From assembly GCF_004217615.1 (NCBI RefSeq), contig NZ_SHLD01000001.1, positions 3,224,001-3,288,000 of the forward strand: a stretch of 64,000 nucleotides of DNA, written 5' to 3'. Position 1 is the stretch's first letter, and the number at the start of each line of letters is the position of its first letter. Source of the DNA: Micromonospora kangleipakensis (GTDB taxonomy: Bacteria; Actinomycetota; Actinomycetes; Mycobacteriales; Micromonosporaceae). This document shows, in pieces, positions 3,583 through 43,347 of the stretch. The position numbers were made by a program, and so were the translations under genes. The notes beneath the pieces were generated by a model. The model was not told where the DNA came from, made no database searches, and saw only the letters and a list, made by a program, of their open reading frames with translations.

Positions 3583-4407
3583 CTAGTACGTTCCGTCGAG
3601 CTGCCCGCGCAGCTTCGTCAGCGCCCGGGCCAGCAGCCGGGACACGTGCATCTGCGAGACGCCGATCTGCTCGGCGATCTGCGACTGGGTCAGGTTGCCG
3701 TAGAAGCGCAGCGTGAGGATCTTCTGCTCGCGCTCGTCGAGGGTGGCGAGCGCCGGGCCCAGGGCGACCCGCAGCTCGGCCAGCTCGAACTCGCCGTCCT
3801 CACCGCCGAGCATGTCGCCCAGCTCGGTCGCCCGGTCGCCGTCGCCGGTCGGGGTGGACAGCGACACCGCGTTGTAGGCGCGGGCACCCTCCAGGCCCTC
3901 CAGGACCTCTTCCTCGGTCAGCTTGAGGTGGGCGGCGATGTCGGTGACCGTCGGCGAGCGGCCGAGGGTCTGCAGCAGCGTGCTGTTGGCGTCGGAGATG
4001 GCCAGCCGCAGCTCCTGGAGGCGACGCGGCACCCGGATGTCCCAGGTGCGGTCGCGGAAGTGCCGCTTGAGCTCGCCGATGATGGTCGGGATGGCGTAAC
4101 CGGCGAAGTCGACGCCGCGGGAGGGGTCGAACTTGTCGATCGCCTTGATCAGGCCGACGGCGGCGGTCTGCGCCAGGTCGTCCGTGGGCTCGCCGCGACC
4201 GCTGTAACGGTGGGCGAGGTGGTTGGCGAGCGGCAGCCAGGCCTCGATCGCCTTGTCCCGCATCGCGGCGCGCGACGGGTGGGTGGCGGGCAGCGCGGCC
4301 ATCGCGTTGAGCAGATCCGCGGCGCTGTCGGTGAGGGCGCGCGGGTCGAGCTTCTCAGTGGTGGACGGCGGTGTGGTCGCCTGCTCGCTGATCGTTGGCG
4401 CGGTCAT
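3583..4407 (-). CDS. SigF/SigB/SigG-family RNA polymerase sigma factor
   Basis: A 274-residue group 3 sigma factor. Region 2 reads LANHLAHRYSGRGEPTDDLAQTAAVGLIKAIDKFDPSRGVDFAGYAIPTI, the core-binding and -10 recognition region. Region 3 follows (RRLQELR...SPTVTDIAAHLKLTEEEV). Region 4 carries the helix-turn-helix NLTQSQIAEQIGVSQMHVSRLL near residues 235-256. Length and order match SigF/SigB proteins, which direct general stress promoters of the GTTT...GGGTAT type and are normally held by an RsbW-like anti-sigma factor. The ATG at 4407 has AGGGAGGA 6 bases upstream; an in-frame GTG 18 bases earlier lies inside that site and is rejected. No anti-sigma gene is adjacent. Several candidate target promoters lie at 10-52 kb. 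Confidence 0.92.
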   Translation of the reverse strand: MTAPTISEQATTPPSTTEKLDPRALTDSAADLLNAMAALPATHPSRAAMRDKAIEAWLPLANHLAHRYSGRGEPTDDLAQTAAVGLIKAIDKFDPSRGVDFAGYAIPTIIGELKRHFRDRTWDIRVPRRLQELRLAISDANSTLLQTLGRSPTVTDIAAHLKLTEEEVLEGLEGARAYNAVSLSTPTGDGDRATELGDMLGGEDGEFELAELRVALGPALATLDEREQKILTLRFYGNLTQSQIAEQIGVSQMHVSRLLARALTKLRGQLDGTY

Positions 4408-4781: not shown

Positions 4782-5525
4782 GTGCTGGATCCCGCCGCTC
4801 CGCAACTCGTCGTCAACGCCCGGGTGCTGCTGTTCAGCTGGCTGCCGGCGGACCCCGACGCGGTCGCGGCGTTCCTCCCGGCCGGGCTGCGGGCCCGCCC
4901 GGACCGGCAGGTCTTCCTGTGCCAGTACGTGGTGGACGACGAGAGCCAGACCTCCGGGTTCGGGGCCTACTCCCTGACCTACCTGGGGATCTCGCTGGTG
5001 GGGATGGACCCGCCGGACGGCGACATTCCCGGCGGGTGGTGGACCCACTACTTCGCCTCCAGCGCCCGGGTCCGCGGATACGCCGCCGCCCGGGGCGCCC
5101 CGGCCCAGGCCGGGCAGACCACCATCGACGTGCGGGGCGACCAGCTCACGGCGGAGACGCGCGCCGACGGGCGGCCGATCATCCGGACCGTGGCCCGCGT
5201 CGGCCACACCGGACACCTCGTACGCAGCGGCCACCATCGGTACCTGACCGGGCGGGACGGGGAGCTGACCAGCGCCGACTACCCGTACGTGGCCGAGCCG
5301 GTGACCCCGTTCGAGATCGAGTGGGTGGACTTCCTCGCCCCCGAACACCCGGTCTACCCGCTACGCCCGGCGAACCCGCTCACCATCTGCTGGGGCTTCT
5401 ACTCCCCACGGGTGTCGTTCGCCTACCCGGCCGGGCCGAACGCGCTCGACGAGCCGCCGGCCGCCGAGCCGGCTTACCAGGTGCCGGCGCGCCGGGCCCG
5501 CAGCGGCCTGCCGTCCGGGTCGTAG
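4782..5525 (+). CDS. Acetoacetate decarboxylase-like protein, catalysis doubtful
   Basis: A 247-residue soluble protein. The pattern of a beta-rich body with AVAAFLPAGLRARPD near the start and NPLTICWGFYSPRVSFAYPAG near the end resembles the acetoacetate decarboxylase (ADC-like) fold. The lysine motif of true decarboxylases (ELxGxPK) is not visible, so a binding or other enzymatic role is possible. The GTG start has GGAGG 4 bases upstream. The 3' end overlaps the convergent phospholipase D gene by 52 bases, so its last residues (VPARRARSGLPSGS) are encoded opposite that gene and may be a run-on past the true domain end. Confidence 0.6.
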   Translation: MLDPAAPQLVVNARVLLFSWLPADPDAVAAFLPAGLRARPDRQVFLCQYVVDDESQTSGFGAYSLTYLGISLVGMDPPDGDIPGGWWTHYFASSARVRGYAAARGAPAQAGQTTIDVRGDQLTAETRADGRPIIRTVARVGHTGHLVRSGHHRYLTGRDGELTSADYPYVAEPVTPFEIEWVDFLAPEHPVYPLRPANPLTICWGFYSPRVSFAYPAGPNALDEPPAAEPAYQVPARRARSGLPSGS

Positions 5526-7063
5526 ACCAGCCGGTACGCGGGCAGCGCCCAGAAGCGGGTGTGCCAGGACAGCCGCTCCGGCCGGTGCGGGCGCAGCCGG
5601 CCCGGCGGGCGGGGACCGACTCGGTCCCCGTCGTGCCAGCGTTGCAGCGCGTCCGCCGCCTCGGTGATCGCCGCCACGGCGGCGGCCGGATCCAGCAGAT
5701 CGTGGTCCTCGCCACCGTCCGGGTCCCGGTCCAGGTGCTCCCGCCACAGCCGCAGCCGCAGGTCCCGGGCGAAGACCCGGGCGGCGTCGCCGAGGCCGGC
5801 CGGGTCCGTGGGCGGCCGCTCGTCCCGGGTGTCGTCCAGCACCGCACAGGAGAGCTCGCTGTCGTGCGTCCAGGAGCGGCGGTTGAAGTTGTCGCTGCCG
5901 ACGCTGGCCCAGACGTCGTCGACCACGCAGACCTTGGCGTGCACGTAGACCGGGGTGCCCTCGTGGTTCTCCACGTCGAAGACGTGCACCCGGTCCGGTG
6001 CCGCCTTCTGGCACAGCGAGAGCGCCTGCTCCCGGCCCACCATGTTCGGCGGCAGCGCGAGCCGGCCGTCCACGTCCGGGTGGCGCGGCACGACGGCGAC
6101 CAGGTGCAGGTCGGGCTGGTCCCGCAGCGCGTTCGCGAAGAGGTCCGCCACCTCGGTCGACCAGAGGTACTGGTCCTCCAGGTAGATCAGTCGCCGGGCC
6201 CGGCGCACCGCCTTGGTGTAGCCGCGGGCCACCGTCCGCTCGCCGTCCGGGGCGAACGAGTACCGGGGTCGTACCGCCGGGTAGGTGCGCAGCACCTGGA
6301 TCCGGTGCGGGCCGCACGGCGGGGGATCGGCCGGCTGGTCGGGCAGCGGGTCGGGGCTCAGGTCGGAGCCGCGCAGCCGGTCCCGCAGGTAGGCCAGCGG
6401 GTTCTCCGAGTCCAGCGGCATCGGATCGGTCCACCGCTCGCGGAACGTCGTGTCGAGCGCGCCGACCACCGGGCCGCGGACCGCGAGCTGGACGTCGTGC
6501 CACGGCGGGTGGTCGCCGTACTTCGGGGACATGCCGACGGGCTGCGGGTCACCCCGGTGCTCGGCGTCGTCCCGCCGGCTGTGGCAGAGGTCGATGCCGC
6601 CGGCGAAGGCGACGTCCCGCTCCGGGGCGTCGGGGTGGCGCAGCACCACGAGCTTCTGGTGGTGCGAGCCGCCGCGCCGGACCCGCTGGTCCAGCAGCAC
6701 CTCGCCGCCGGCCGCGCAGACCGCCTCGCTGAGGTCGCGGTTCTCCGCCTCGCTGTAGGAGAGCACGTCGAGGTGGGACCGCCAGATCAGCCCCTTGACC
6801 ACCACGCCGCGCTGGGCGGCCCGCGCGAAGAGTTGCACCACGGTCGGGCCGTCCGGGCGCATCCGCTGATCCGGGTCGCCCCGCCAGTCGGTGAAGAAGA
6901 GATGGTCGCCGGCCTTCAGCGCCTCCACCTCGCTGACCAGGCGGTCGAAGTACGTCGCGCCGTGAATCAACGGCTCGGCGAGGTTTCCCGTCGTCCAGGC
7001 GGGTAATTCAGACCCCGGGTTGGCACGTTCCTGCGCGGTGAGGAACCAGTCCTGCATCGCCAC
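5474..7063 (-). CDS. Phospholipase D-family protein
   Basis: A 529-residue phospholipase D-like phosphodiesterase with two HKD half-sites: HHQKLVVLRHPDAPERD (residues about 168-184) and VHAKVCVVDDVWASVGSDNFNRRS (about 375-398). Both have the H-x-K-x4-D core and the second has the trailing GSxNxxxRS. A matching YLEDQYLWS element precedes the second site. Such enzymes hydrolyse or transfer phosphatidyl groups; cardiolipin synthase-like activity is an alternative. No signal peptide is seen, so it is probably cytosolic or membrane-associated. The GTG at 7063 is chosen because GGGAGG lies 6 bases upstream; an ATG two codons inside is the alternative. It diverges from the small gene at 7194. Confidence 0.85.
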   Translation of the reverse strand: MAMQDWFLTAQERANPGSELPAWTTGNLAEPLIHGATYFDRLVSEVEALKAGDHLFFTDWRGDPDQRMRPDGPTVVQLFARAAQRGVVVKGLIWRSHLDVLSYSEAENRDLSEAVCAAGGEVLLDQRVRRGGSHHQKLVVLRHPDAPERDVAFAGGIDLCHSRRDDAEHRGDPQPVGMSPKYGDHPPWHDVQLAVRGPVVGALDTTFRERWTDPMPLDSENPLAYLRDRLRGSDLSPDPLPDQPADPPPCGPHRIQVLRTYPAVRPRYSFAPDGERTVARGYTKAVRRARRLIYLEDQYLWSTEVADLFANALRDQPDLHLVAVVPRHPDVDGRLALPPNMVGREQALSLCQKAAPDRVHVFDVENHEGTPVYVHAKVCVVDDVWASVGSDNFNRRSWTHDSELSCAVLDDTRDERPPTDPAGLGDAARVFARDLRLRLWREHLDRDPDGGEDHDLLDPAAAVAAITEAADALQRWHDGDRVGPRPPGRLRPHRPERLSWHTRFWALPAYRLVYDPDGRPLRARRAGTW

Positions 7064-23356: not shown

Positions 23357-23381
23357 GTACCCGGGGGCGGTGATCGCAAAC
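23357..23381 (-). promoter_or_regulatory. SigF/SigB-type promoter, near-leaderless
   Basis: On the - strand GTTT (23381-23378), a 15-base spacer and GGGTAC (23362-23357), a full match to GTTT-N15-GGGTAY. The start codon of the 23084 gene begins 10 bases after the -10 box. Confidence 0.7.
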
Positions 23382-23398
23382 GGCCGGGGCGGACACGG

Positions 23399-23428
23399 CG
23401 ATGGCCGCCGGATCACCGGCGGCCATCG
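23399..23428 (-). terminator. Terminator after the SRPBCC gene
   Basis: CGATGGCCGCCGG (23399-23411) and CCGGCGGCCATCG (23416-23428) form a perfect 13-bp stem with a 4-base loop, 27 bases beyond the SRPBCC stop and just upstream of the 23084 promoter. It isolates the two genes. Confidence 0.65.
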
Positions 23429-23455
23429 GAGTTGTCTGTCCGGGGGGTCAGGGGA

Positions 23456-23917
23456 TCAGGGCGTCGGCCGGTCGACCTTGCCGCGCCAGGCGCCGGTCTC
23501 CTGACCGCGCCGCTCGATGAACTGCTTGAACCGCTCCAGGTCGCCCTTGGCCCGGCGGTCGACCACGCCCAGCTTGTCGCCGGCCTGTTCGACCACGCCG
23601 TGCGGCTCGAAGTCCATCTGCAGGGTGACGCGGGTGGTGCCCTCGTCGAGCCGGTGGAACGTCACCACGCCGGCCTGCTGGGTGCCGCCGGTGGACTTCC
23701 AGGCGACCCGCTCGTCCGGCAGCTGCTCGGTGATCTCGGCGTCGAACTCCCGCTTCACCCCGGCGATCTCCACCGTCCAGTGGGTCGTCGTGTCGGAGAG
23801 CTGCCGCACCTCCTGGACACCTTCCATGAAGTGGGGGAACTCCTCGAACTGGGTCCACTGGTCGTAGGCGGTCCGGATCGGGACGGAGACGTCCACGTGC
23901 TCGGTAACGCCGCTCAT
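23456..23917 (-). CDS. SRPBCC-family (polyketide cyclase/dehydrase-like) protein
   Basis: A 153-residue protein of the START/Bet v1-like SRPBCC fold: an N-terminal strand EHVDVSVPIRTAYDQWTQFEEFPHFMEGVQEV, central strands WTVEIAGVKREFDAEITEQLPDERVAWKS, GVVTFHRLDEGTTRVTLQMDFEP, and a long C-terminal helix (GDLERFKQFIERRG). The fold forms a hydrophobic pocket; many actinobacterial relatives of this short type are stress-associated and lack a known ligand. The ATG at 23917 has AGAGGAGGA upstream. It is 52 bases downstream of the DUF2795 gene and probably shares its SigF-type promoter. Confidence 0.82.
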   Translation of the reverse strand: MSGVTEHVDVSVPIRTAYDQWTQFEEFPHFMEGVQEVRQLSDTTTHWTVEIAGVKREFDAEITEQLPDERVAWKSTGGTQQAGVVTFHRLDEGTTRVTLQMDFEPHGVVEQAGDKLGVVDRRAKGDLERFKQFIERRGQETGAWRGKVDRPTP

Positions 23918-23969
23918 GAAGAATCCTCCTCTGCCCGCCGGTGAGTCTGCGGATCGTGGGCCGATCCGG

Positions 23970-24386
23970 TCACCAGCGCGTCGTCTCGTTCTTGTGCCCG
24001 AGTGCGGCCCACACCTCGGAAATCGTCTGGTAACGGATGCCCTCGGGAAGCCCTTCCAGCGCGGCGATGATGTCCGCCGGCGCCGCGTTCTGCTGGGCGT
24101 TGGCGATCAGCGCCGCCCGGTCGCCCGGCAGCGCCGTCATGGTGATGAACCGGCCGAGGCGGCTGCGCCCCTCCACGTCGTCCATGCTCATCCCCTGCGG
24201 GTTGCCGCCACGGCTCGCGCCGGCCGTCACCGTCTTCGGCTCCGGCTGGTCCTCGCCCGCCGGCTCCGGCTGCCGGGACTCCTCGACGCGCGAGCCACCG
24301 GCCCCCGGCCCCTGGACGAGCCCGGCGACCTCCTGGCTCATGTTGTCGTCGACCCTCGGCGAGTGCTTGCTGTTGCCACGTTCCAT
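23970..24386 (-). CDS. DUF2795-domain protein
   Basis: A 138-residue protein. The C-terminal 70 residues hold a DUF2795-like domain (DIIAALEGLPEGIRYQTISEVWAALGH); the N-terminal half is Gln/Glu/Pro-rich and probably disordered. DUF2795 proteins are common in actinobacteria and have no established function. The ATG at 24386 is preferred over an ATG four codons upstream (24398), because the earlier one overlaps the -10 box of a SigF-type promoter. With 24386 the start lies 11 bases after that box, as at several neighbouring genes. Confidence 0.7.
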   Translation of the reverse strand: MERGNSKHSPRVDDNMSQEVAGLVQGPGAGGSRVEESRQPEPAGEDQPEPKTVTAGASRGGNPQGMSMDDVEGRSRLGRFITMTALPGDRAALIANAQQNAAPADIIAALEGLPEGIRYQTISEVWAALGHKNETTRW

Positions 24387-24396
24387 GCCGACAGAC

Positions 24397-24421
24397 ATGC
24401 CCGAGGGGGCCGCCCGTAAAC
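24397..24421 (-). promoter_or_regulatory. SigF/SigB-type promoter, near-leaderless
   Basis: On the - strand GTTT (24421-24418), a 15-base spacer and GGGCAT (24402-24397), one mismatch to GGGTAT. The DUF2795 start codon is 11 bases after the box. The same box and spacing occur upstream of the aldehyde dehydrogenase gene. Confidence 0.6.
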
Positions 24422-24451
24422 CGGGGCCGGCCCACGGAGCCGGTCATTCGG

Positions 24452-25429
24452 TCACGAATCGGCGGGCGCCCGCGGTGGCAGGACGGGCTCGCCCGGGTCC
24501 TCGCCGCCCGCCTGCAGCACCCGGCCGCGCTGCACCTCCGCGTTGACCTGCACGCCGAGCAGCAGGGCGCAGTTGGACAGGTACAGCCAGACCAGGAAGG
24601 CGATGACGGCGCCGAGGCTGCCGTAGGTCACGTCGTACGAGCCGAAGTTGGCGACGTAGAGGCCGAAACCGAACGAGGCGACCACCCAGGCGAACAGGGC
24701 GAGCGCACCGCCCGGGGTGAGCCAGCGGAACCGGGGCTGCTGGACGTTCGGCGCGATCCAGAACATCAGCGAGAGCAGGGTCATCACCACCAGGGCCAGC
24801 ACCGGCCACTTGGCGACGCTCCACACCGTCCGGGCCAGCCCGCCGGCGTGCAGCCGGTCGCCCACCGCGTCGGTGACCGGCCCGCTGACGATCAGGCCGG
24901 TGGCGACGATCGCCAGCAGGACCAGCGACACCCCGGCCAGGCCGATCTGCAACGGGCGCAGCCGGTAGAAGGGGCGGCCCTCCGCGACGCCGTAGACGGC
25001 GTTGGAGGCCCGGGTGAACGCCCCGATGAAGCCCGAGGCCGACCAGAGCGCGCCGAGCAGACCGAAGCTGAGCAGCACCTTCGCCTGACCCTGCTGCTGG
25101 ACCACGCCGCGGACCACGTTGACGAAGCCGTCGTTTCCGACCACCGAGCCGGCGCCGATCTCCCGGGCCAGGCCGATCACCGTGTCCACGGTGCGCTCGC
25201 CGTCGGAGACCAGCCCGACCAGGGCGACCACGACGATGGTGGAGGGGAAGAGCGCCAGCACTCCGTAGTAGGTGAGCGCCGCCGCCCAGTCCGCGCAGTT
25301 GTCCTTGAGGAAGTTGCGCCCGCTGCGGACCAGCACCCCGCGCCAGGTGGCCCAGCTCAGCTGGCGCATCCGGCGGGGGATCCGGGCCCGCTGCCGGCCG
25401 GTGACCGCCGGCTCCGTCGTCGCTGCCAT
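24452..25429 (-). CDS. YihY/BrkB-family inner membrane protein
   Basis: A 325-residue membrane protein with six hydrophobic segments and the family pattern: FLKDNCADWAAALTYYGVLALFPSTIVVVALVGL near the start, LWSASGFIGAFTRASNAVYGVAEGRPFYRLR in the middle, and AVIAFLVWLYLSNCALLLGVQVNAEVQR near the C-terminus. YihY (BrkB) proteins were once annotated as RNase BN; the transport or envelope role remains unclear. The ATG at 25429 has AGGGAG 5 bases upstream. A consensus SigF-type promoter lies 57 bases upstream in a region shared with the divergent ChaB gene. Confidence 0.88.
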   Translation of the reverse strand: MAATTEPAVTGRQRARIPRRMRQLSWATWRGVLVRSGRNFLKDNCADWAAALTYYGVLALFPSTIVVVALVGLVSDGERTVDTVIGLAREIGAGSVVGNDGFVNVVRGVVQQQGQAKVLLSFGLLGALWSASGFIGAFTRASNAVYGVAEGRPFYRLRPLQIGLAGVSLVLLAIVATGLIVSGPVTDAVGDRLHAGGLARTVWSVAKWPVLALVVMTLLSLMFWIAPNVQQPRFRWLTPGGALALFAWVVASFGFGLYVANFGSYDVTYGSLGAVIAFLVWLYLSNCALLLGVQVNAEVQRGRVLQAGGEDPGEPVLPPRAPADS

Positions 25430-25485
25430 GGCCGCTCCCTGTGTTCCGCCGCCCGGGCGCACCCCCGCACGTGGTGGCCCGGGCG

Positions 25486-25511
25486 GTACCCCGCCGGGAA
25501 AGTCGACAAAC
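25486..25511 (-). promoter_or_regulatory. SigF/SigB-type promoter of the YihY gene
   Basis: On the - strand GTTT (25511-25508), a 16-base spacer and GGGTAC (25491-25486), a full consensus match. Its -35 box is the left arm of the palindrome at 25504-25528. Confidence 0.7.
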
Positions 25512-25528
25512 CGGGTGCCGGTTTGTCG
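25504..25528. repeat. Inverted repeat carrying two divergent -35 boxes
   Basis: CGACAAACCGG (25504-25514) and CCGGTTTGTCG (25518-25528) are perfect 11-base arms with a 3-base centre. Each arm contains one GTTT box, in opposite directions. Confidence 0.7.
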
Positions 25529-25545
25529 CCGGGCGGTGCGGGAAC
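25521..25545 (+). promoter_or_regulatory. SigF/SigB-type promoter of the ChaB-Rho gene
   Basis: GTTT (25521-25524), a 15-base spacer and GGGAAC (25540-25545), one mismatch to GGGTAC. The leader to the ATG at 25582 is about 30 bases and holds GGAGGAGG. Confidence 0.6.
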
Positions 25546-25581
25546 TTCACTGGGTAACCCATCGACGCGGAGGAGGACGAG

Positions 25582-25986
25582 ATGCCCGGGCGCGAGGTAC
25601 TGCCCAGCACGCTGCGGCGCTCCCCGGAGAAGGCCCAGCGGACGTGGGAGAAGACGCACGACTCGGCGGTGGAGACGTACGGCGAGGGGGAGCGGTCGCA
25701 CCGCACCGCGTTCGCCGCCGTGAAGCACGAGTTCGAGAAGGTCGGCGACCACTGGGAGCCGAAGGGCCGCAAGGGCCCCAGCGACCAGCAGGCCGCCGGG
25801 GGCGGCCCCGCGCGGCGGACGCCCACGGCCGCCGGTGTGGACGCGAATGCGCCCAAGGAGCACCTGATGGAGGTGGCCAAGAAGCTGGACGTGCCGGGCC
25901 GGTCCCGGATGACCAAGCCGGAGCTGGTCAAGGCGATCCAGAAGGCGAACGACAAGCAGACCCGGGAGGCGCGGGCCCGTCGCTGA
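25582..25986 (+). CDS. ChaB-like protein with C-terminal Rho N-like domain
   Basis: A 134-residue soluble, basic protein. The N-terminal part (LPSTLRRSPEKAQRTWEKTHDSAVETYGEGERSHRTAFAAVKHEFEKVGDHW) is the ChaB domain, named after the putative cation transport regulator. The C-terminal part (EHLMEVAKKLDVPGRSRMTKPELVKAIQKAND) is a Rho N-terminal/SAP-like helix pair that may bind nucleic acid. The start is set by GGAGGAGG upstream of the ATG at 25582. It diverges from the YihY gene and has its own SigF-type promoter; a stress-related role is inferred. Confidence 0.85.
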   Translation: MPGREVLPSTLRRSPEKAQRTWEKTHDSAVETYGEGERSHRTAFAAVKHEFEKVGDHWEPKGRKGPSDQQAAGGGPARRTPTAAGVDANAPKEHLMEVAKKLDVPGRSRMTKPELVKAIQKANDKQTREARARR

Positions 25987-26001
25987 CCGCCCCGACACGA
26001 C

Positions 26002-26033
26002 GGGAGCCCGGGACCGACTGGTCCCGGGCTCCC
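26002..26033. terminator. Strong bidirectional terminator
   Basis: GGGAGCCCGGGACC (26002-26015) and GGTCCCGGGCTCCC (26020-26033) form a perfect 14-bp stem with a 4-base loop between the convergent ChaB and aldehyde dehydrogenase genes. Confidence 0.75.
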
Positions 26034-26042
26034 GCGTCGTCG

Positions 26043-27476
26043 TCACCAGTGGCCGCCGCCCGGCGCCTCGATGTGCACGGTCTTCACCGTGCTGAACTCG
26101 TCGAGCAGCTCCGGGCCGTACCCGAAGCCCTGGCCGCTGCCCCGGCGCGGCTGCGCGGCGCCGCCCGGCGCGCCCCCGAAGACCGCGTTCACCTTGACGG
26201 TGCCGACCGGCAGCTCCCGCCAGGCCCGCTGGGCGTGGCTCATCGACCCGGTGAGCACCGTGGCCGCCAGCCCGTACGGCGAGTCGGCGGCGCAGCGCAG
26301 CCCCTCGCTGAACGAGTCGACCACGATCACCGGGGCGACCGGACCGAACGTCTCCTCGCGGACCAGGGCCATCTCGTGCCGGCAGTCGGCCACCACCGTC
26401 GCCGGGTAGAACGCTCCCGGCCCGTCCGGCTCCATCCCGCCGGTACGCACCCGGGCGCCCTCCGCGATCGCCGCGGTGACCTGCCCGTGCACGTGGTCCC
26501 GGTGCCGCCGGTCCACCAGCGGGCCGAGCTGCGTCCCGGGGTCGCGGCCCGGGCCCATGGTCAGCGCCTCGGCGCGTTGCACCAGCGCGTCGACGAAGTC
26601 CTCCGCCACGTCCCGGTGCACGTAGATCCGTTCCACCGCCACGCAGATCTGCCCGGCGTTGGCGAAGCAGCCGAGCGCCGCCTGCCCGGCCGCCCAGACC
26701 GGGTCGACGCCGTTGTCCACCACGAGCGGGTCGCTGCCGCCGTTCTCCAGCAGCACCTTGGCGCCGGTGCGGGCCCCGGCGGCGGCGATCTCCCGGCCGG
26801 TGGCGGTGGAGCCGACGTGGGCCACCACGTCCACCTGCTGGCCGGCCAGCGCCGCGCCCACCTCGGGGCCGCCGGTCAGCAGCGACAGCACCCCGGCGGG
26901 CAGCGCGGAGTCCAGCGCCTTCGCCAGCAGCCAACCGGTCGCCGGGGTGCGCTCGCTCGGCTTGTAGAGCACCACGTTGCCGGTGACCAGGGCCGCGCCG
27001 AGCAGCCCGCAGGAGATCGCCACCGGGTCGTTCCACGGGGTGATCGCGGCGACCACGCCGTGCGGCTCGGGGGCCATGAAGTCGATGGACGACTGCCCGC
27101 CGTGCAGCGTCCGGCCGCCGCGCACCGGCGCCAGCTCCGCGTACTGTCGCAGCGTGCCGACCCCCGCCGCCACCCCGCCGCGCGCGTCGTCCAGCGGCTT
27201 GCCCATCTCCGCCGTCGTCGCCTGCGCCAGCTCCTCCGCGGCGGCCTCCACCGCGTCCGCGGCCCGGTGCAGCGCCGCCGCCCGCTCCGCGGAGGCGGTC
27301 GCCGCCCAGTCCGTCGCCGTCTCCCGGGCGGCCTCCACCGCCTTGGCCACCTCGTCCGCCGTAGCCACCGGCACGCTGGTCACCGGGGAGCCGTCGGTCG
27401 GATCGTGTACGACCAGCTCCCCTCCCGTGCCACCCGCACCCCACACTCCGCCGATGAGCTGTGTAACCGTGTACAT
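26043..27476 (-). CDS. Aldehyde dehydrogenase (NAD(P)-dependent)
   Basis: A 477-residue ALDH-superfamily enzyme that oxidises an aldehyde to the acid. Visible motifs: the cofactor region AAITPWNDPVAISCGLLGAALVTGNVVLYKPSERTP, the HVGSTATGREI turn, the glutamate motif VLLENGGSDP (usually LELGG, so one residue differs), and the catalytic cysteine motif CFANAGQICVAVERI. The C-terminal PFGG region is replaced by APGGAAQPRRGSGQGFGYGPELLDEFSTVKTV. The ATG at 27476 has no ribosome binding site and lies 11 bases after a SigF-type -10 box. It diverges from the oxidoreductase gene with a shared promoter region, suggesting joint stress control. The aldehyde is unknown. Confidence 0.88.
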   Translation of the reverse strand: MYTVTQLIGGVWGAGGTGGELVVHDPTDGSPVTSVPVATADEVAKAVEAARETATDWAATASAERAAALHRAADAVEAAAEELAQATTAEMGKPLDDARGGVAAGVGTLRQYAELAPVRGGRTLHGGQSSIDFMAPEPHGVVAAITPWNDPVAISCGLLGAALVTGNVVLYKPSERTPATGWLLAKALDSALPAGVLSLLTGGPEVGAALAGQQVDVVAHVGSTATGREIAAAGARTGAKVLLENGGSDPLVVDNGVDPVWAAGQAALGCFANAGQICVAVERIYVHRDVAEDFVDALVQRAEALTMGPGRDPGTQLGPLVDRRHRDHVHGQVTAAIAEGARVRTGGMEPDGPGAFYPATVVADCRHEMALVREETFGPVAPVIVVDSFSEGLRCAADSPYGLAATVLTGSMSHAQRAWRELPVGTVKVNAVFGGAPGGAAQPRRGSGQGFGYGPELLDEFSTVKTVHIEAPGGGHW

Positions 27477-27486
27477 GCGGCAGTGG

Positions 27487-27511
27487 ATGCCCCGGCCCCG
27501 GCGAGGCAAAC
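27487..27511 (-). promoter_or_regulatory. SigF/SigB-type promoter, near-leaderless (ALDH side)
   Basis: On the - strand GTTT (27511-27508), a 15-base spacer and GGGCAT (27492-27487). The ALDH start codon is 11 bases after the box. Its -35 is half of the palindrome AAACGCGTTT (27508-27517). Confidence 0.6.
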
Positions 27512-27513
27512 GC

Positions 27514-27539
27514 GTTTCGCCCGGTAACCGGCCGGGTAG
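27514..27539 (+). promoter_or_regulatory. SigF/SigB-type promoter, near-leaderless (oxidoreductase side)
   Basis: GTTT (27514-27517), a 16-base spacer and GGGTAG (27534-27539). The start codon at 27549 is 10 bases after the box, and no ribosome binding site is present. Its -35 is the other half of AAACGCGTTT. Confidence 0.55.
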
Positions 27540-27548
27540 GCGGATCGG

Positions 27549-29153
27549 ATGACCACGACCGCCACGGCCGGCGCGGACGCCGTCGTCGTCGGCGCCGGCC
27601 ACAACGGCCTGGTGGCCGCGAACCTGCTGGCCGACGCGGGCTGGGACATCCTGGTGCTGGAGGCGACCCAGGCCCCCGGCGGGGCGGTCCGCTCCGCCGA
27701 GGTGACCGCCCCCGGCTACCTCAGCGACCTCTACAGCTCGTTCTATCCGCTCGGTTACGCCTCGCCGGTGCTGCGCGGGCTGGACCTCGACCGGTACGGG
27801 CTCACCTGGACGCACGCCCCCGACGTGCTGGCCCACCTGCTGCCCGACGGACGAGCCGCGGTGGTCAACCGGGACGTCGACACCACCGCCGCCTCGCTGG
27901 AGGCGTTCGCCCCGGGGGACGGGGACCGCTGGCGGCACGCGTACGCCGACTGGCGCGAGGTGGCCGAGCCGATGCTCGACACCATCACCACGCCCTTCCC
28001 GCCGGTGCGCGGCGGGCTGACCCTGCTGCGCCGGCTGCGCGTCTCGGGCGCGCTGCGGCTGGCCCGCCGGCTCGTGGTGCCGGTCCGCAAGCTCGGCGAC
28101 GAGCTCTTCGACGGCGACGGCGGGCCGGCGCTGCTGGCCGGCTGCGCCCTGCACACCGACCTGTCGCCCGAGGAGGCCGGCTCCGGGGTGTACGGCTGGC
28201 TGCTGGCCATGCTCGGCCAGCAGGTCGGCTGGCCGGTGCCGGTCGGCGGGTCCCAGAAGATCACCGACGCGCTGGTGGCCCGGCTGGTCGCGCGGGGCGG
28301 CCGGATCGACTACGGCGCCCGGGTCGACCGGGTGCTCACCGCCCGGGGCCGGGCCATGGGGGTCCGCACGGTCGGCGGCGCCACCTGGCGGGCCCGGCGG
28401 GCGGTGCTGGCCGACATCCCCGCGCCGGCGCTCTTCCTGGACCTGGTCGGCGCGGCGGCGCTGCCGCCCCGGCTGGTGGAGGACCTGGCCCACTTCAAGT
28501 GGGACGGCTCCACCCTCAAGGTGGACTGGGCGCTCTCCGCGCCGGTGCCGTGGAAGAACCGGGCCGTGGCCGCCGCCGGCACCGTGCACCTCGGCGCCGA
28601 CCTCGACGGGTTGACCACCTACTCCGCTGCGCTGGCCCGGGGCGAGGTGCCCCGCGACCCGTTCCTGCTGGTCGGGCAGATGTCGGTGGCCGACCCGAGT
28701 CACTCCCCGCCGGGCACCGAGTCGCTCTGGTCGTACACCCACCTGCCGTTCCGTCGACACTGGCGGGCCGAGGAGATCGCCGGACACGTCGAGCGGATGG
28801 AGGAGGTGCTGGAGGAGGCCGCGCCCGGCTTCCGCTCGCTGATCGTGGGGCGGCACGTGGCCGGCCCGGCCGACCTGGAGCAGGGCGACCCGAGCCTGGT
28901 CGGCGGCGCGGTCGGCGGGGGCACCGCGGCCGCGTACCAGCAGCTCTTCCTCCGCCCGATTCCCGGCCTGGGCCGGGCGGACACCCCGGTGGACCGGCTC
29001 TTTCTGGCCAGCTCGTCGGCCCACCCGGGTGGCGGCGTGCACGGCGCGCCCGGCGCGAACGCGGCCCGGGCGGCGCTGGCCCGCGACCGCGCGCTCACCG
29101 GCGAGCTGTACGCCGGGGTGATCGGCGCGGCGCACCGGGCCGTCTACCGCTGA
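27549..29153 (+). CDS. Phytoene desaturase-like FAD/NAD(P)-binding oxidoreductase
   Basis: A 534-residue flavoprotein of the CrtI/retinol saturase-like type. The N-terminal FAD fold is AVVVGAGHNGLVAANLLADAGWDILVLEA followed by GGAVRSAEV. The middle contains VPVGGSQKITDALVARLVARGG. The C-terminal FLASSSAHPGGGVHGAPGANAARAAL matches the second flavin motif of this group. True carotenoid genes are not nearby, so the isoprenoid or other substrate is open. The ATG at 27549 has a nearly leaderless SigF-type promoter. It diverges from an aldehyde dehydrogenase, which could act on its product, but that is speculative. Confidence 0.85.
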   Translation: MTTTATAGADAVVVGAGHNGLVAANLLADAGWDILVLEATQAPGGAVRSAEVTAPGYLSDLYSSFYPLGYASPVLRGLDLDRYGLTWTHAPDVLAHLLPDGRAAVVNRDVDTTAASLEAFAPGDGDRWRHAYADWREVAEPMLDTITTPFPPVRGGLTLLRRLRVSGALRLARRLVVPVRKLGDELFDGDGGPALLAGCALHTDLSPEEAGSGVYGWLLAMLGQQVGWPVPVGGSQKITDALVARLVARGGRIDYGARVDRVLTARGRAMGVRTVGGATWRARRAVLADIPAPALFLDLVGAAALPPRLVEDLAHFKWDGSTLKVDWALSAPVPWKNRAVAAAGTVHLGADLDGLTTYSAALARGEVPRDPFLLVGQMSVADPSHSPPGTESLWSYTHLPFRRHWRAEEIAGHVERMEEVLEEAAPGFRSLIVGRHVAGPADLEQGDPSLVGGAVGGGTAAAYQQLFLRPIPGLGRADTPVDRLFLASSSAHPGGGVHGAPGANAARAALARDRALTGELYAGVIGAAHRAVYR

Positions 29154-29156
29154 GCA

Positions 29157-29188
29157 GCCCTGGGCCGCCCTGCGAGGCGGGCCTGGGC
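29157..29188 (+). terminator. Imperfect hairpin after the oxidoreductase gene
   Basis: GCCCTGGGCCGCC (29157-29169) pairs with GGCGGGCCTGGGC (29176-29188) at 11 of 13 positions, directly after the stop. Confidence 0.45.
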
Positions 29189-29249
29189 GCCGCTCGACGA
29201 CGGCCCCGCGGCGGTTCGGCGGCCCGTCCGGAGATGGCACTCTCTGGCG

Positions 29250-29380
29250 CGCCCTTTGCTCTGCTGCACTCCACGCAACAGTTACCCTCCGTGCTGGCTG
29301 CGGTTCTGGCGGGACTGCCAGTCATGGCGATAACCGCAGCTCAGCGCGGTGTTGCGGTGGCTGAAGCAGAGCAAAGGGCG
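29250..29380. repeat. 131-bp element with nested inverted repeats
   Basis: Outer arms CGCCCTTTGCTCTGCT (29250-29265) and AGCAGAGCAAAGGGCG (29365-29380) are perfect 16-base inverted repeats. Inside lie a second pair (GCTGCGGTT...AACCGCAGC) and a third (CTGGC...GCCAG). There is no good reading frame inside. It fills most of the 300-base gap between the oxidoreductase and the mannose synthase genes. Its left end, CCCTTTGCTCTGCTGCA, recurs at 61240-61256. It looks like a small mobile or repeated palindromic element, or a structured RNA. Confidence 0.6.
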
Positions 29381-29453
29381 TCGAGCAGGGGGATCGGTCG
29401 CCGCCCCGCCATGACCGTGCGTCACGGCCACGGCGGGGGGCGGGACGCCGTGC

Positions 29454-30221
29454 TCAGCCCTCGATGTTGCGGTGCCGGGAGCGCAGCTTGAACGGCATCA
29501 GCGCGCTCTCGATCTTGGTGGCGGTGGTCATCTTCGAGATGCCCTCGCGGCGCTCCTCGAAGCGGATCGGCACCTCCAGGATGGTGTGCCCCAGCTTGGT
29601 GGCGAGGTAGTGCATCTCGACCTGGAAGCTGTAGCCGTTGGACTGCACCCGGTCCAGCCCGATCTCGCGCAGGGCGTCGGCCCGCCAGATCTTGAAGCCG
29701 GCGGTGAGGTCCCGGATCCGCACCCGCAGCAGCGTGTGCACGTACAGGTTGGCCCAACCGCTGAGCGCCCGCCGGTAGAGCGGCCAGTTCTCGTCCAGCT
29801 GCCCGCCGGGCACGTAACGGGAGCCGATCACCACGCCGGCCTGGGTGGAGAGCAGCGCGCCGAGCATGCCCGGCAGCGCCTCCGGCGGGTGCGACAGGTC
29901 GGCGTCCATCTGCGCCACGTACTCGGCGCCGCCGTCCAGCGCCCGGCCGATCCCGTCCACGTACGCCCGGCCCAGCCCCTCCTTGCCCGCGCGGTGCACC
30001 ACCTGCACGCGGTCCGGGTGCTCGATGGCCAGCTTGTCCGCCACCTCGCCCGTCCCGTCCGGGGAGTTGTCGTCCGCGACCAGCACCTTCAGCCCCGGCA
30101 GCGGCAGGGCGAGGAGCCGCTCGACCAGGACCGGAAGGTTCCCCGCCTCGTTGTAGGTGGGCACGACGACGGTCAGGCGTGCGTCCCGCCACGGAGCGGG
30201 CAACTGCACGGGTTCGATCAT
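29454..30221 (-). CDS. Polyprenol monophosphomannose synthase (GT2 family)
   Basis: A 255-residue soluble GT2 glycosyltransferase. The N-terminal LTVVVPTYNEAGNLPVLVERLL and LVADDNSPDGTGEVADKL (nucleotide-binding Asp residues), QMDADLSHPPEALPGML (the DAD metal motif) and the late EVPIRFEERREGISKMTTATKIESA are all typical of dolichol/polyprenol-phosphate mannose synthases such as mycobacterial Ppm1 domain 2. It transfers mannose from GDP-mannose to polyprenyl phosphate for lipoglycan or protein mannosylation. The acyltransferase half found in some fused homologues is absent. The ATG at 30221 follows GAGGA. It lies upstream of the heptose operon on the opposite strand. Confidence 0.9.
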   Translation of the reverse strand: MIEPVQLPAPWRDARLTVVVPTYNEAGNLPVLVERLLALPLPGLKVLVADDNSPDGTGEVADKLAIEHPDRVQVVHRAGKEGLGRAYVDGIGRALDGGAEYVAQMDADLSHPPEALPGMLGALLSTQAGVVIGSRYVPGGQLDENWPLYRRALSGWANLYVHTLLRVRIRDLTAGFKIWRADALREIGLDRVQSNGYSFQVEMHYLATKLGHTILEVPIRFEERREGISKMTTATKIESALMPFKLRSRHRNIEG

Positions 30222-30332
30222 GGGACATCCTCGGTCGGCCGACAGTGTTCATCTGAGAGGGTAGCTAGTTGCCTCCGCCCGGTCCGCACAGACGCCCGCC
30301 CGGAGGCTGCGGAGCATCGTCGCGCCGGCCGG

Positions 30333-31334
30333 TCAGCGTAACCGGCGGGCCAGCCCGGTGGCCGCCATCACCAGCCCACCCAGGGCGAGGACCGACGCCG
30401 TCGGCTTGTGCGCGCTCACCCAGAGTGCGGCCGAGTGCCGCCGGGACCGGTCGGTGAAGACCCCCTCCGCGCCCCAGTCCTGCTCGTCGTCGCCGGGCCG
30501 GTCCAGGTTGTCCCGCCACTGCGCCGGGTCGATCGGGGTGTCGGTCTGCTGGCTGTCGTACCCGCTGCGGGCCAGCTGCCGGTCGAGCAGGCCGGGGAAG
30601 AGGACGTTGCCCAGCCGGGCCCGCCAGGTCGGCCCGCCCACGTTCAGCTCGCGCGGCCCGTGGTCCGCGGCCCGCACCACCGCCCGGGCGGCCACCTCCG
30701 GCGCGAAGATCGGCGGCACCGGCTGCGGATGCCGGGGCAACCGGGTGCGTACCCAGGAGAACTGCGGGGTGTTGACCGCCGGCAGCTGCACCATGGACAG
30801 CCGTACGCCGGGTAGGTCGTGCAGCAGCTCGGCCCGGAGCGAGTCGTTGAACCCCTGCACCGCGTGCTTGCTGGCGCAGTACGCCGACTGCAGCGGGATG
30901 CCCCGGTAGGCCAGGGCGGAACCGACCTGCACGATGGCGCCGCGGCCGTGCGCGCGCATGTGTCGCAGCGCGGCCAGGGTGCCGTGCACCGTGCCGAGGT
31001 AGTTCACCTCGGTGACCCGGCGGAACTCGGCCGCCGTGATCTCCCAGGCCGGGGCGAAGACCGACACCATCGCGTCGTTGATCCAGACGTCCAGGCCGTC
31101 GAAGTGCTGCACCACGTCGTCGGCGGCCCGCTGCACCGCACCCTCGTCGGCCACGTCCACCTGGTACGTCCGGACGTCGGCGGCGCCGAGCCGGCGGCAG
31201 TCCCGCTCGGCGGCGGCCAGGCCGGCCTCGCCCCGGGCGATCAGCCCCAGCCGGGCGCCCCGGGCCGCGTACGCCCGCGCGACCGCCCGACCCACCCCGG
31301 CGCTCGCCCCGGTGATCACCACCCGTTGGGTCAT
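30333..31334 (-). CDS. SDR-family oxidoreductase with C-terminal extension
   Basis: A 333-residue protein. The SDR domain occupies the first 250 residues: cofactor loop TGASAGVGRAVA, and active site VQVGSALAYRGIPLQSAYCASKHAVQG with Ser, Tyr and Lys in place. After it, an extension ends in a short hydrophobic segment (TASVLALGGLVMAATGLARR) that could anchor it to the membrane. This longer architecture is common in actinobacterial SDRs of unknown substrate. The start overlaps the stop of the SRPBCC gene (ATGA, 31331-31334), so both are translated from one mRNA. Confidence 0.83.
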   Translation of the reverse strand: MTQRVVITGASAGVGRAVARAYAARGARLGLIARGEAGLAAAERDCRRLGAADVRTYQVDVADEGAVQRAADDVVQHFDGLDVWINDAMVSVFAPAWEITAAEFRRVTEVNYLGTVHGTLAALRHMRAHGRGAIVQVGSALAYRGIPLQSAYCASKHAVQGFNDSLRAELLHDLPGVRLSMVQLPAVNTPQFSWVRTRLPRHPQPVPPIFAPEVAARAVVRAADHGPRELNVGGPTWRARLGNVLFPGLLDRQLARSGYDSQQTDTPIDPAQWRDNLDRPGDDEQDWGAEGVFTDRSRRHSAALWVSAHKPTASVLALGGLVMAATGLARRLR

Positions 31335-31777
31335 CGGTCCGCCTTCTGCCGGGTGGCGATGTCGGAGAGCCGGTTCAACGTCTCCTTGTTCCGCAGGCGC
31401 AGCACCAGGTCGTTGAGCTTGTTGCGCACCCAGCGCAGCGGCCCGGCGGCGAAGTCCTCGCCGATCCGGACCCGGGTGGCGCCGTCGCCCACCGGATCCA
31501 GGGTGAAGACCACGGTCGCCTCGCCGGCCGGCCAGAGCCCCGCCTTGACGACGAGCTTGCGCGGCGGCTCGCAGACCAGCACGGTGGAGGAGTCCTGCAG
31601 GGAGAACGGCCACGGTCCGGCCCGGTGGTGCAGCTGGCTGCCCACCCGGGGCCAGGTGTCGTCCACGTTCCGCACGTGCGCGGTGCCGACCACCCAGTCG
31701 CTGTACGTCCAACCGTCGGCCAACACGTCGAAGACCTGCTGCGGGGGCGCGTCGATCACTTTCTCCACAATCGCCAC
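31331..31777 (-). CDS. SRPBCC-family protein
   Basis: A 148-residue START-like protein: AIVEKVIDAPPQQVFDVLADGWTYSDWVVGTAHVRNVD at the N-terminus, LVVKAGLWPAGEATVVFTLDPVGDGATRVRIGEDF in the sheet, and a C-terminal helix LNDLVLRLRNKETLNRLSDIA. It should bind a hydrophobic ligand; function unknown. The GTG at 31777 begins 10 bases after a GGGTAT box, and no ribosome binding site is present. It is the first gene of a two-gene unit with the SDR. Confidence 0.8.
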   Translation of the reverse strand: MAIVEKVIDAPPQQVFDVLADGWTYSDWVVGTAHVRNVDDTWPRVGSQLHHRAGPWPFSLQDSSTVLVCEPPRKLVVKAGLWPAGEATVVFTLDPVGDGATRVRIGEDFAAGPLRWVRNKLNDLVLRLRNKETLNRLSDIATRQKADR

Positions 31778-31786
31778 GGCAATCCC

Positions 31787-31812
31787 ATACCCTCGCCTGG
31801 TCCGCCGCTAAC
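31787..31812 (-). promoter_or_regulatory. SigF/SigB-type promoter, near-leaderless (SRPBCC-SDR side)
   Basis: On the - strand GTTA (31812-31809), a 16-base spacer and a perfect GGGTAT (31792-31787). The GTG start is 10 bases after the box. The -35 is part of the inverted repeat GCTAAC (31807-31812)/GTTAGC (31824-31829). Confidence 0.55.
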
Positions 31813-31823
31813 GGGGTCACCGG

Positions 31824-31849
31824 GTTAGCTTCTCGGCGGCGGCGGGTAA
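31824..31849 (+). promoter_or_regulatory. Candidate SigF/SigB-type promoter toward the heptose operon
   Basis: GTTA (31824-31827), a 16-base spacer and GGGTAA (31844-31849). Its -35 is the mirror image of that of the divergent promoter. It would give the heptose operon a leader of 80 bases or more, depending on the true start. Confidence 0.4.
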
Positions 31850-31931: not shown

Positions 31932-33686
31932 ATGATGTTTACTCCTCGGGGGCTCGGGAACCCGCCCGCCGTGCGACGGGACCACGAGCGGGATCAGTGC
32001 AGGTCAGCCCGGGTTGACCCGGGTTCTGACCGGTTCCCGTCGGCACTCTTCGACGCGGTCCTGCTGGACCGGGACGGCACCCTCGTCGAGGACGTGCCCT
32101 ACAACGGCGACCCGGAGAAGGTCCGGCCGCTGCCGGGCGTCCGGGAGGCCCTGGACCGGCTGCGCGGCGCCGGGTTGCGGCTCGCGGTGGTGACCAACCA
32201 GTCGGGACTGGCCCGCGGCCTGTTCACCCACGACGAGCTGCGCCGGGTGAACGCGCGGGTGGAGGAGCTGCTCGGACCCTTCGACGCCTGGCAGATCTGC
32301 CCGCACGGCGAGCGGGACGGTTGCGGCTGCCGCAAGCCCGCTCCCGGTCTGGTGCGCGCCGCCGCCCGTGCGCTCGGCACCAGCCCGATCCGTTGCGTCA
32401 TGGTCGGCGACATCGGCGCCGACATGGAGGCCGCCGCGGCGGCCGGCGCCGCGGGGATCATGGTCCCCACCCCGGCCACCCGGCCGGCCGAGGTCGCCGC
32501 CGCGCCCACGGTCGTCGAGGACCTGCCCGCGGCGGTGGCGCGGATCCTGGACCGGATCGGCCTGGTGTCCCCGCCCGCGTCGCAGCGACGGCGGGGCACC
32601 GTGCTGGTGGTACGCAGCGACGCCGCGGGGGACGTGCTGGTCACCGGTCCCGGCATCCGGGCCGTCGCCGCCGGAGCCGACCGGGTCGTCCTGCTCTGCG
32701 GCCCCCGCGGCCGAGCCGCCGCCGACCTGCTGCCCGGCATCGACGGGCTCATCGAATGGCCACTGCCGTGGATCGACGGCAACCCCGCCCCCGTCGACCC
32801 CGACGACATCCGCCACCTCACCACCCGCCTCGCCCAGGTCGGCGCCGACGAGGCCGTCATCTTCACCTCCTTCCACCAGTCCCCCCTACCCCTGGCCCTC
32901 CTGCTACGGATGGCCGGCGTACCCCGGATCAGCGCCATCAGCGACGACTACCCCGGCGCCCTGCTCGACGTCCGCCACCGCGTACCCGTCGGCGTACCCG
33001 AACCCGAACGCGCCCTCTCCCTCGCCGCCGCCGCCGGCTTCGCCCTGGCCCCGGACGACGAACCGGGGCTGCGGCTGCGGGACGACCGGCTGCCGGCCAC
33101 GCCGGCCGGCACCGGCGAGCCCGGCTACGTGGTGCTGCACCCCGGATCGTCGGTCGAGACCCGGGCCTGCCCGCCGGAGCTGGCCACCCGGATCGTCCGG
33201 GTGCTCCACGCCGCCGGGTACCGGGTGGTGGTCACCGGCGGACCGGACGAGCGGGAGTTGACCGCCCGGGTCGCCGCGGCCGGCGGAATCGACCTCGGTG
33301 GCCGCACCGGGCTCGGCGAGCTGGCCGCCATCATCGCGCGGGCCGGCGCGCTCGTCGTCGGCAACACCGGGCCGGCGCACCTGGCCGCGGCGCTGGGGGT
33401 GCCGGTGGTCAGCCTCTTCGCCCCGACCGTCCCGTTCGGACAGTGGGGGCCGTACCGGGTGCCCACGGTCCGGCTCGGCGACGCGGGCGCGCCCTGCCGG
33501 GACACCCGGGCCACCCGCTGCCCCGTCCCCGGGCATCCCTGCCTCTCCGCCGTCGAGCCGGGACGGGTCCTGGCGGCGCTGCGGCTGCTCGGCGTGCCCG
33601 CCGACGCGCCGGCCGGGCCGGAGGCGGTGGTCGCCGGACCGCCGCGGGGACCGGCGGTGACCGCCACCGGCGGGGTGGCCCGATGA
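31932..33686 (+). CDS. Fusion of GmhB-like heptose-bisphosphate phosphatase and GT9 heptosyltransferase
   Basis: A protein of about 584 residues. The first domain is a HAD phosphatase of the GmhB type: LFDAVLLDRDGTLVEDVPYNGDPEKVRPLPG, VVTNQSGLARGLF and the zinc-binding CPHGERDGCGCRKPAPG, which removes the C7 phosphate of heptose 1,7-bisphosphate. The second, from about residue 220, is a GT9 glycosyltransferase: VLVVRSDAAGDVLVTGPGIRA, VVLHPGSS, VVVTGGPDERELTARVA and VGNTGPAHLAAALGVPVVSLFAP. The exact start is uncertain (ATG 31932 or 31935, or GTG 31971); the conserved domain begins near 32045. It heads a run of overlapping genes. A stretch at about 32755-33055 is unusually C-rich. Confidence 0.88.
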   Translation: MMFTPRGLGNPPAVRRDHERDQCRSARVDPGSDRFPSALFDAVLLDRDGTLVEDVPYNGDPEKVRPLPGVREALDRLRGAGLRLAVVTNQSGLARGLFTHDELRRVNARVEELLGPFDAWQICPHGERDGCGCRKPAPGLVRAAARALGTSPIRCVMVGDIGADMEAAAAAGAAGIMVPTPATRPAEVAAAPTVVEDLPAAVARILDRIGLVSPPASQRRRGTVLVVRSDAAGDVLVTGPGIRAVAAGADRVVLLCGPRGRAAADLLPGIDGLIEWPLPWIDGNPAPVDPDDIRHLTTRLAQVGADEAVIFTSFHQSPLPLALLLRMAGVPRISAISDDYPGALLDVRHRVPVGVPEPERALSLAAAAGFALAPDDEPGLRLRDDRLPATPAGTGEPGYVVLHPGSSVETRACPPELATRIVRVLHAAGYRVVVTGGPDERELTARVAAAGGIDLGGRTGLGELAAIIARAGALVVGNTGPAHLAAALGVPVVSLFAPTVPFGQWGPYRVPTVRLGDAGAPCRDTRATRCPVPGHPCLSAVEPGRVLAALRLLGVPADAPAGPEAVVAGPPRGPAVTATGGVAR

Positions 33687-43210: not shown

Positions 43211-43347
43211 CAGTGGCCGCAGGTACCCGAGGGGGGATCGGGCGAAACCGGAGGCTTCCGACGGGGTGGTTCAGCCGACCCCCAGAACGGGCGTTGACGT
43301 GCGAGGCGGAGCAGGAGGGGGCGCCGCCCCGACCGGGCGAGGGGACC

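Follow-up and report, generated by a model that had tools for sequence, protein, structure and literature searches.

The window analyzed here is a 64-kb stretch of the Micromonospora kangleipakensis genome (positions 3224001 to 3288000 of 7.27 Mb in one contig), and within 8.6 kb it carries nine sites that resemble promoters of the SigB/SigF family of general-stress sigma factors (Table 1). Six of the sites lie 9 or 10 bases upstream of gene starts, and the genes concerned, which include those for a DUF2795 protein, an aldehyde dehydrogenase, a CrtO/phytoene desaturase-like enzyme, and an SRPBCC protein, are predicted to be translated from leaderless mRNAs. A preliminary description of this DNA had reported five of the sites, with the pattern GTT[TA]-N15/16-GGG[TC]A[TCG] and with start codons that follow at a fixed 10 or 11 bases and lack a ribosome binding site. 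A search of both strands of the window with this pattern returned seven matches, of which five are the reported promoter/start pairs, present as described and with boxes of the SigB/SigF type (GTTT or GTTA and GGGNA, spacer of 15 or 16 bases). The remaining two matches precede the YihY/BrkB gene (25511 to 25486) and the RecQ-like helicase gene (43248 to 43223), both on the reverse strand. The constancy of the spacing was borne out, but the figure of 10 or 11 was not: if only the bases that separate the -10 box from the start codon are counted as the gap, the five gaps are 9, 10, 10, 9, and 9; the earlier count took in the first letter of the codon as well. A wider pattern that also accepts GGGAA was used to find further sites in the window, and relaxed-pattern matches inside genes (e.g., 30922 to 30898 on the reverse strand, in the SDR gene) were excluded from the nine sites. 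The sixth putatively leaderless site had been overlooked because its -10 box is GGGAAC. Over the six sites, the -35 box is GTTT at five and GTTA at one (31812), and the spacer is 15 or 16 bases.

Table 1. SigF-type sites and associated genes in the window (window positions; aa, amino acids; gap as defined in the text)
Feature	Position	Strand	Boxes	Remarks
SigB/F/G-family sigma factor gene, candidate reader	3583..4407	-		TIGR02980; start ATG 4407
Predicted leaderless open reading frame, 87 aa	23084..23347	-		No Pfam/NCBIfam match
SigF-type promoter	23357..23381	-	GTTT-N15-GGGTAC	Gap 9 to ATG 23347 of 23084 gene
Predicted leaderless DUF2795 gene, 138 aa	23970..24386	-		PF11387; start from conservation
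SigF-type promoter	24397..24421	-	GTTT-N15-GGGCAT	Gap 10 to ATG 24386, DUF2795 gene
Leadered SigF-type promoter	25486..25511	-		Gap 56 to ATG 25429, YihY/BrkB gene; GGAG upstream of start
Leadered SigF-type promoter	25521..25545	+	GTTT-N15-GGGAAC	Gap 36 to ATG 25582, ChaB/Rho_N gene
Predicted leaderless aldehyde dehydrogenase gene	26043..27476	-		PF00171
SigF-type promoter	27487..27511	-	GTTT-N15-GGGCAT	Gap 10 to ATG 27476, aldehyde dehydrogenase gene
SigF-type promoter	27514..27539	+	GTTT-N16-GGGTAG	Gap 9 to ATG 27549; divergent to aldehyde dehydrogenase promoter
Predicted leaderless CrtO/phytoene desaturase-like gene	27549..29153	+		Family search
Predicted leaderless SRPBCC gene	31331..31777	-		Then SDR gene 30333..31337
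SigF-type promoter	31787..31812	-	GTTA-N16-GGGTAT	Gap 9 to GTG 31777, SRPBCC gene
SigF-type site, divergent	31824..31849	+	GTTA-N16-GGGTAA	Gap 121 to GTG 31971; leadered if used
Sixth putative leaderless SigF-type promoter	31937..31961	+	GTTT-N15-GGGAAC	Gap 9 to GTG 31971
Predicted leaderless HAD hydrolase-glycosyltransferase family 9 fusion gene, 571 aa	31971..33686	+		Family search
SigF-type promoter	43223..43248	-		Gap 12 to ATG of RecQ-like helicase gene (43210)

The gap is conserved across related genera of the Micromonosporaceae. Among the named relatives (80 kept of 113, with the N terminus of the flanking genes recovered in 58 to 80), 68 of 73 orthologs of the 23084 gene have a gap of 8 to 10 (more exactly, 9 or 10), as do 71 of 72 of the DUF2795 gene, 68 of 73 of the aldehyde dehydrogenase gene, 65 of 80 of the CrtO-like gene, and 52 of 58 of the SRPBCC gene (9 or 10 in these); the sixth gene, starting at GTG 31971, has a gap of 9 in 52 of 58 relatives. 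The leadered siblings behave otherwise. YihY orthologs have the motif in 66 of 67 cases with gaps from 2 to 83 (8 to 10 in 2/67), and ChaB orthologs have it in 67 of 70 cases with gaps mostly from 34 to 46 (8 to 10 in 1/70). Shine-Dalgarno tetramers (AGGA, GGAG, or GAGG at -17 to -6; in orthologs, only where the extrapolated start is ATG or GTG) occur in 0/60 orthologs of the 23084 gene, 1/72 of DUF2795, 0/73 of aldehyde dehydrogenase, 0/50 of CrtO-like, and 5/58 of SRPBCC, compared with 69/69 of ChaB and 11/14 of YihY. Because the leaderless genes keep the gap while their leadered siblings drift, with the same contrast in Shine-Dalgarno sequences, the gap appears to be constrained only in genes without a leader. 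The fixed gap therefore applies as a rule to the leaderless class, and it fails at three intergenic sites of SigF type among the nine, which are leadered. The site at 31824 to 31849, one of these three, reads GTTAGC and usually GGGTAA, and 56 of 58 relatives match GTT/GGGNA here. No start codon follows it at the distance seen in the leaderless genes; the 31971 gene may have it as an additional, leadered promoter.

In the window itself, the reported lack of ribosome binding sites was confirmed, with the tetramers absent from four of the five starts. The fifth start (31777) has GAGG at -17 to -14, which overlaps the -10 box GGGTAT and so would lie upstream of any mRNA if the gene is leaderless. 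The 23084 gene has GGGGA one base upstream of its ATG, which was considered as a ribosome site and rejected because the spacing is too short. The start of the DUF2795 gene at 24386 rather than 24398, as proposed earlier, is upheld by a gap of 10 in 70 of 72 orthologs. The ATG at 24398 arises from the -10 box GGGCAT itself and is a trap for gene callers; this box is GGGTAG in 55 of 72 orthologs, and most orthologs have no ATG equivalent to 24398.

The preliminary description had named a lack of genome-wide enrichment of the gap as a refutation of its claim; enrichment was found in an independent set of 2.8 Mb of the genome outside the window, relative to both of two controls, namely, the reversed pattern and wrong -35/-10 spacings (11 to 12 or 19 to 20 bases). 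Genes in this set were called with a crude coding-score caller (2,408 genes). The original pattern gave 41 matches, 32 of them noncoding, with gene-compatible ATG or GTG codons six times at gaps of 8 to 10, twice at the other 19 gaps from 0 to 21, and 28 times at gaps of 22 to 59, many of the last with a Shine-Dalgarno-like sequence. The corresponding numbers were 0, 1, and 1 for the 18 matches of the reversed pattern and 0, 0, and 3 for the 37 matches with wrong spacings. Noncoding pairs of GTTT and GGGTA[GCT] number 17 at spacings of 15 to 16, and every other spacing in the range of 8 to 27 has 0 to 2; the most frequent box is GGGTAG, present at 12 of these 17 sites. In the whole genome, GTTT-N15/16-GGGTAB has 46 matches, and its reverse has 8.

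The enrichment is also seen in the genus. Of the 132 same-genus rows among the matches listed (18 rows from other families excluded), each with an ATG 2 to 22 bases downstream, 82 have a gap of 8 (18 rows), 9 (43 rows), or 10 (21 rows); a site with two ATGs counts as two rows, with three such pairs in this tally and several in the SigA-like and grouping tallies. After average-linkage grouping of whole promoter strings, 32 to 42 groups lie at gaps of 8 to 10, versus 36 to 39 in the other 18 bins, among the matches listed. An earlier single-linkage grouping on the last 16 letters (11 groups at gaps of 8 to 10 versus 34 elsewhere) was dropped as invalid, because the compared letters are mostly fixed motif and unrelated G+C-rich strings were merged. 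A smaller second peak at gap 12 comprises 15 rows and 5 to 8 groups among the same-genus matches listed, and it includes the conserved RecQ-like gene at 43210; this gap recurs within the genus in near-identical strings (among the matches listed). At the RecQ-like gene it would give a leader of about 3 nucleotides. In a class-wide sample of 60 genomes, 42 of 87 rows have a gap of 8 to 10, with 24 of 38 rows from three genomes of one family of the same order (f8) and 18 of 49 elsewhere. The grouping and class-wide tallies exclude nine rows of the M. kangleipakensis genome.

The position of the transcription start can be approached by comparing the two sigma classes. The housekeeping hexamer TANNNT alone, placed before gene starts, occurs 163 times at gap 6, 144 times at gap 7, and 45 times at gap 8, with 10 to 23 occurrences at each other gap from 0 to 24. 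GGG[TC]A[TCG] alone peaks at gap 9 (46 occurrences), with about 20 at neighboring gaps. Strong SigA-like promoters of the genus likewise have their leaderless peak at gaps of 6 to 7 (29 of the 123 same-genus rows among the matches listed, 27 other rows excluded). The SigF-type and SigA-type peaks are thus offset by 3 bases, and when measured from the A of TA, both start codons lie 10 to 11 bases on. From this common register, the simplest reading is that the A of GGGTA is the -11 base and that the start codon is at +1. In a table of S1-mapped SigB-homologue promoters of Streptomyces coelicolor, the string beyond the -10 box has a median length of 9 letters over 24 promoters (PMC8346170 Table 2); this is the distance to the transcription start site (TSS) provided that the strings, printed as plain text without a mark for the TSS, end there. 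Together, these data point to a leader of about 0 to 2 nucleotides rather than the 3 to 5 proposed earlier.

The CrtO-like gene provides a case in which the box class differs between relatives. Its closest named relatives are from Micromonospora, with 95% identity in Micromonospora sicca (L141). A SigF-type box with a -35 box stands at a gap of 8 to 10 in 67 of 80 orthologs, and in 12 of those 67 the box is a hybrid, GGGTAnnnT, which contains TANNNT at a gap of 6 to 7 in the same register. A thirteenth hybrid, in one Actinoplanes, is without a -35 box. TANNNT alone is found at a gap of 6 to 7 in 10 of 80 orthologs, namely, six from Salinispora (all of that genus), two from Plantactinospora (both), and two from Actinoplanes; of 3,840 other positions in the same CrtO upstream regions, none has TANNNT at that distance. 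Since the start is fixed while the box class differs, the gene gives independent support for the register. Because GGGTA and TANNNT share TA, a GGGTAnnnT box could serve both a stress and a housekeeping sigma factor from one +1. We tentatively suggest, as a possibility that falls somewhat short of even chances, that the leaderless start codon acts as an anchor, with control being rewired between stress and housekeeping sigma factors while the mRNA start and the start codon stay unmoved.

It is highly probable, as judged from these patterns, that the six genes belong to a general-stress regulon of the SigB/SigF family and are leaderless, with the start codon at or near +1. A group 3 sigma factor would bind GTTT and GGG(T/C/A)A. 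Transcription would begin about 10 to 11 bases after the A of GGGTA, which would take the role of the -11 A in the housekeeping TANNNT. Selection may hold the first base of the start codon at that point, such that the mRNA would begin within about two bases of the ATG or GTG and be translated without a Shine-Dalgarno sequence. The boxes, the gaps and their conservation, the offset of 3 bases relative to SigA-type genes, and the drifting gap of the leadered siblings are visible in the sequence; we infer the acting sigma factor and stress induction. Several observations weigh against this interpretation. The mRNA 5' ends at the six genes are inferred, and as the gap varies from 8 to 10, a leader of 1 or 2 nucleotides is possible at single genes. 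Counts of orthologs are not counts of independent events, and gene calls in the 2.8-Mb set are crude. Five of 73 aldehyde dehydrogenase orthologs have no SigF box, the exact motif of the sixth site as searched is missing from the remaining 6 of 58 relatives, and two CrtO orthologs (L154 and L220) have neither box. Among the SigA-like matches listed, the counts at gap 10 (13 rows, of which 12 repeat a single sequence) and gap 11 (11 rows) are also high. The class-wide pattern has 96 forward matches against about 58 reversed (summed by eye); because the reversed control is high, many of the class-wide rows are chance, and because one family also dominates, generality over the class is weaker than the result for the genus.

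Two other explanations of the gap can be weighed on the same evidence. That the boxes arose by chance, or that the transcripts are leadered and come from promoters further upstream, so that the gap is meaningless, draws on the shortness of the motif, on DNA of 70 to 74% G+C, and on the fact that the nine sites in 8.6 kb were found partly via a relaxed pattern; but the enrichment is specific to spacings of 15 to 16, and exceeds both controls outside the window, and for each gene 52 to 71 orthologs show conservation, which makes this explanation extremely improbable. The near-leaderless alternative of the preliminary description, in which transcription starts 6 to 7 nucleotides after GGGTAC and the mRNAs carry 3 to 5 leader bases, is somewhat less remote yet still very unlikely. 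The gap of 9 to 10 does exceed the SigA-type leaderless gap by 3, which fits this alternative provided that the two hexamers share an end point. GGGTAC would then finish at -7, and the SigF and SigA gaps would differ without reason, yet they are equal once aligned on the common TA. It is also contradicted by the box swaps and hybrids of the CrtO-like gene, which hold the start at TA plus 10 to 11, and by the S. coelicolor S1 starts, on the premise that each printed string stops at the TSS.

For the preferred reading, of leaderless genes with the start codon at or near +1, a separate question is whether the leaderless state is a stress device, with SigF targets having been selected for translation when canonical initiation shuts down. 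Leaderless sites make up 6 of the 9 in the window cluster versus 10 of 39 elsewhere (Fisher P = 0.044, a post hoc comparison of small samples), and a leaderless reporter in Mycobacterium tuberculosis is reported to have kept more stable translation than a Shine-Dalgarno one under starvation and nitric oxide (PMC8485053). However, the leaderless shares outside the window do not differ detectably, 10 of 39 for SigF-type promoters (gap 8 to 10; gene start within 120 nucleotides; one gene doubly counted) and 8 of 40 for SigA-like promoters (gap 6 to 7; within 250 nucleotides), with a Fisher P value of 0.6 in small samples. With the original pattern and the 250-nucleotide range, the shares are 6 of 27 and 8 of 40 (P = 1.0). 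In 13 same-genus genomes, GTTT/GGGTAS is followed by an ATG at gaps of 23 to 53 in 187 cases and at gaps of 2 to 22 in 130 (11 and 9 for the reversed pattern; summed by eye), and leaderless starts with TANNNT boxes are common in this genome. Selection as a stress device is thus considered unlikely. The proposal of the preliminary description that translation of these mRNAs may be favored as a group under stress is reasonable in the light of the M. tuberculosis report but stays a hypothesis for this regulon.

The product of 3583 to 4407, earlier described as a sigma factor, belongs to the SigB/F/G family by TIGR02980 (284 bits; cutoff, 234); its NF005514 score of 283.6 is below the SigF-specific cutoff of 372. 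Three such genes above the TIGR02980 cutoff are present in the genome, the other two at 3.82 and 5.10 Mb, and the window gene is therefore one of three candidate readers of the cluster. Two open reading frames upstream of it on the reverse strand (4485 to 5348 and 5361 to 6503), in which a sigma partner was sought, have no Pfam match. Other SigF-type targets include OsmC, cytochrome bd, DUF2267, DUF2231, and STAS/HATPase genes, which are typical general-stress genes, and the target set is in line with a SigB/SigF regulon. The putatively leaderless SigF-type genes outside the window (loci L030, L031, L072, L074, L089, L090, and L091) encode Rieske/DUF2231 and DUF2171 proteins, two AI-2E transporters, cytochrome bd subunit I, an NDH-2-like oxidoreductase, OsmC, an alpha/beta hydrolase, and a CDGSH iron-sulfur protein. 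A larger SigF-type island, with 23 of the 39 noncoding sites of the 2.8-Mb set, lies at 3.7 to 3.9 Mb (3.72 to 3.89 Mb, L086 to L095) and surrounds the SigB/F/G gene at 3821338. Of the 46 strict sites in the genome, 10 lie no more than 70 kb from that gene and 4 no more than 70 kb from the window sigma gene, with 0.9 expected; in 2,000 uniform shuffles, at most 8 sites fell in 110 kb, compared with the 10 observed. The sigma genes seem to sit among their own targets. In addition, an identical 26-base SigF-type promoter string occurs at genome positions 596095, 3450410, and 6669665, and we suspect that these three are rRNA operon promoters akin to rrnEp2 of S. coelicolor (PMC8346170 Table 2). 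Identical 48-base SigA-like promoter strings at 5574364 and 5586750, 12 kb apart, indicate a local duplication.

The closest known case is sspA of S. coelicolor, which is SigF dependent and whose S1-mapped transcription start is the translational start (PMC4282423). Like the window genes, sspA combines a group 3 sigma promoter with a leaderless start; it is a single sporulation gene of Streptomyces, whereas here six neighboring genes are involved and the gap is kept across the Micromonosporaceae. The SigB-homologue promoters of S. coelicolor resemble those of the window in their GTTT or GNNT and GGGNAN boxes, and the word "leaderless" is absent from the available text of PMC8346170. In mycobacteria, the SigF promoter is GGWWT-N16-17-GGGTAY (PMC7693655), GGGTA is found at 56 hypoxia-induced promoters (PMC6448022), and 24% of Mycobacterium smegmatis transcripts are leaderless overall (PMC7693655, PMC6448022); sigma family and boxes are the same as here, where GGGTAG is commonest. 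In Actinoplanes sp. SE50/110, of the same family, 1,179 of 4,228 TSSs are leaderless (PMC7682106). SigA-type leaderless genes of M. tuberculosis (PMC3898074) and Actinoplanes also have the start codon at the A of TA plus 10 to 11 and no Shine-Dalgarno sequence, but they belong to the other sigma class, and their hexamer reaches 3 bases closer to the start codon. The finding is known in kind, since Actinobacteria have many leaderless genes and the SigF-dependent sspA has been mapped. A leaderless geometry across SigF promoters and a hybrid box were not found in the titles or abstract openings of the literature searched, and their absence is not claimed.

The register in which the TA of GGGTA equals the TA of TANNNT would predict transcription starts and start codons for SigB/SigF-type promoters of Actinobacteria. 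It may also correct gene starts, as at the DUF2795 gene and the missed GTG start at 31971, and it suggests that the promoter class can change while the leaderless start stays put. If stress-specific translation of such mRNAs were demonstrated, the cluster would offer a convenient test system, with promoters of one sigma type, six leaderless and three leadered, next to one another.

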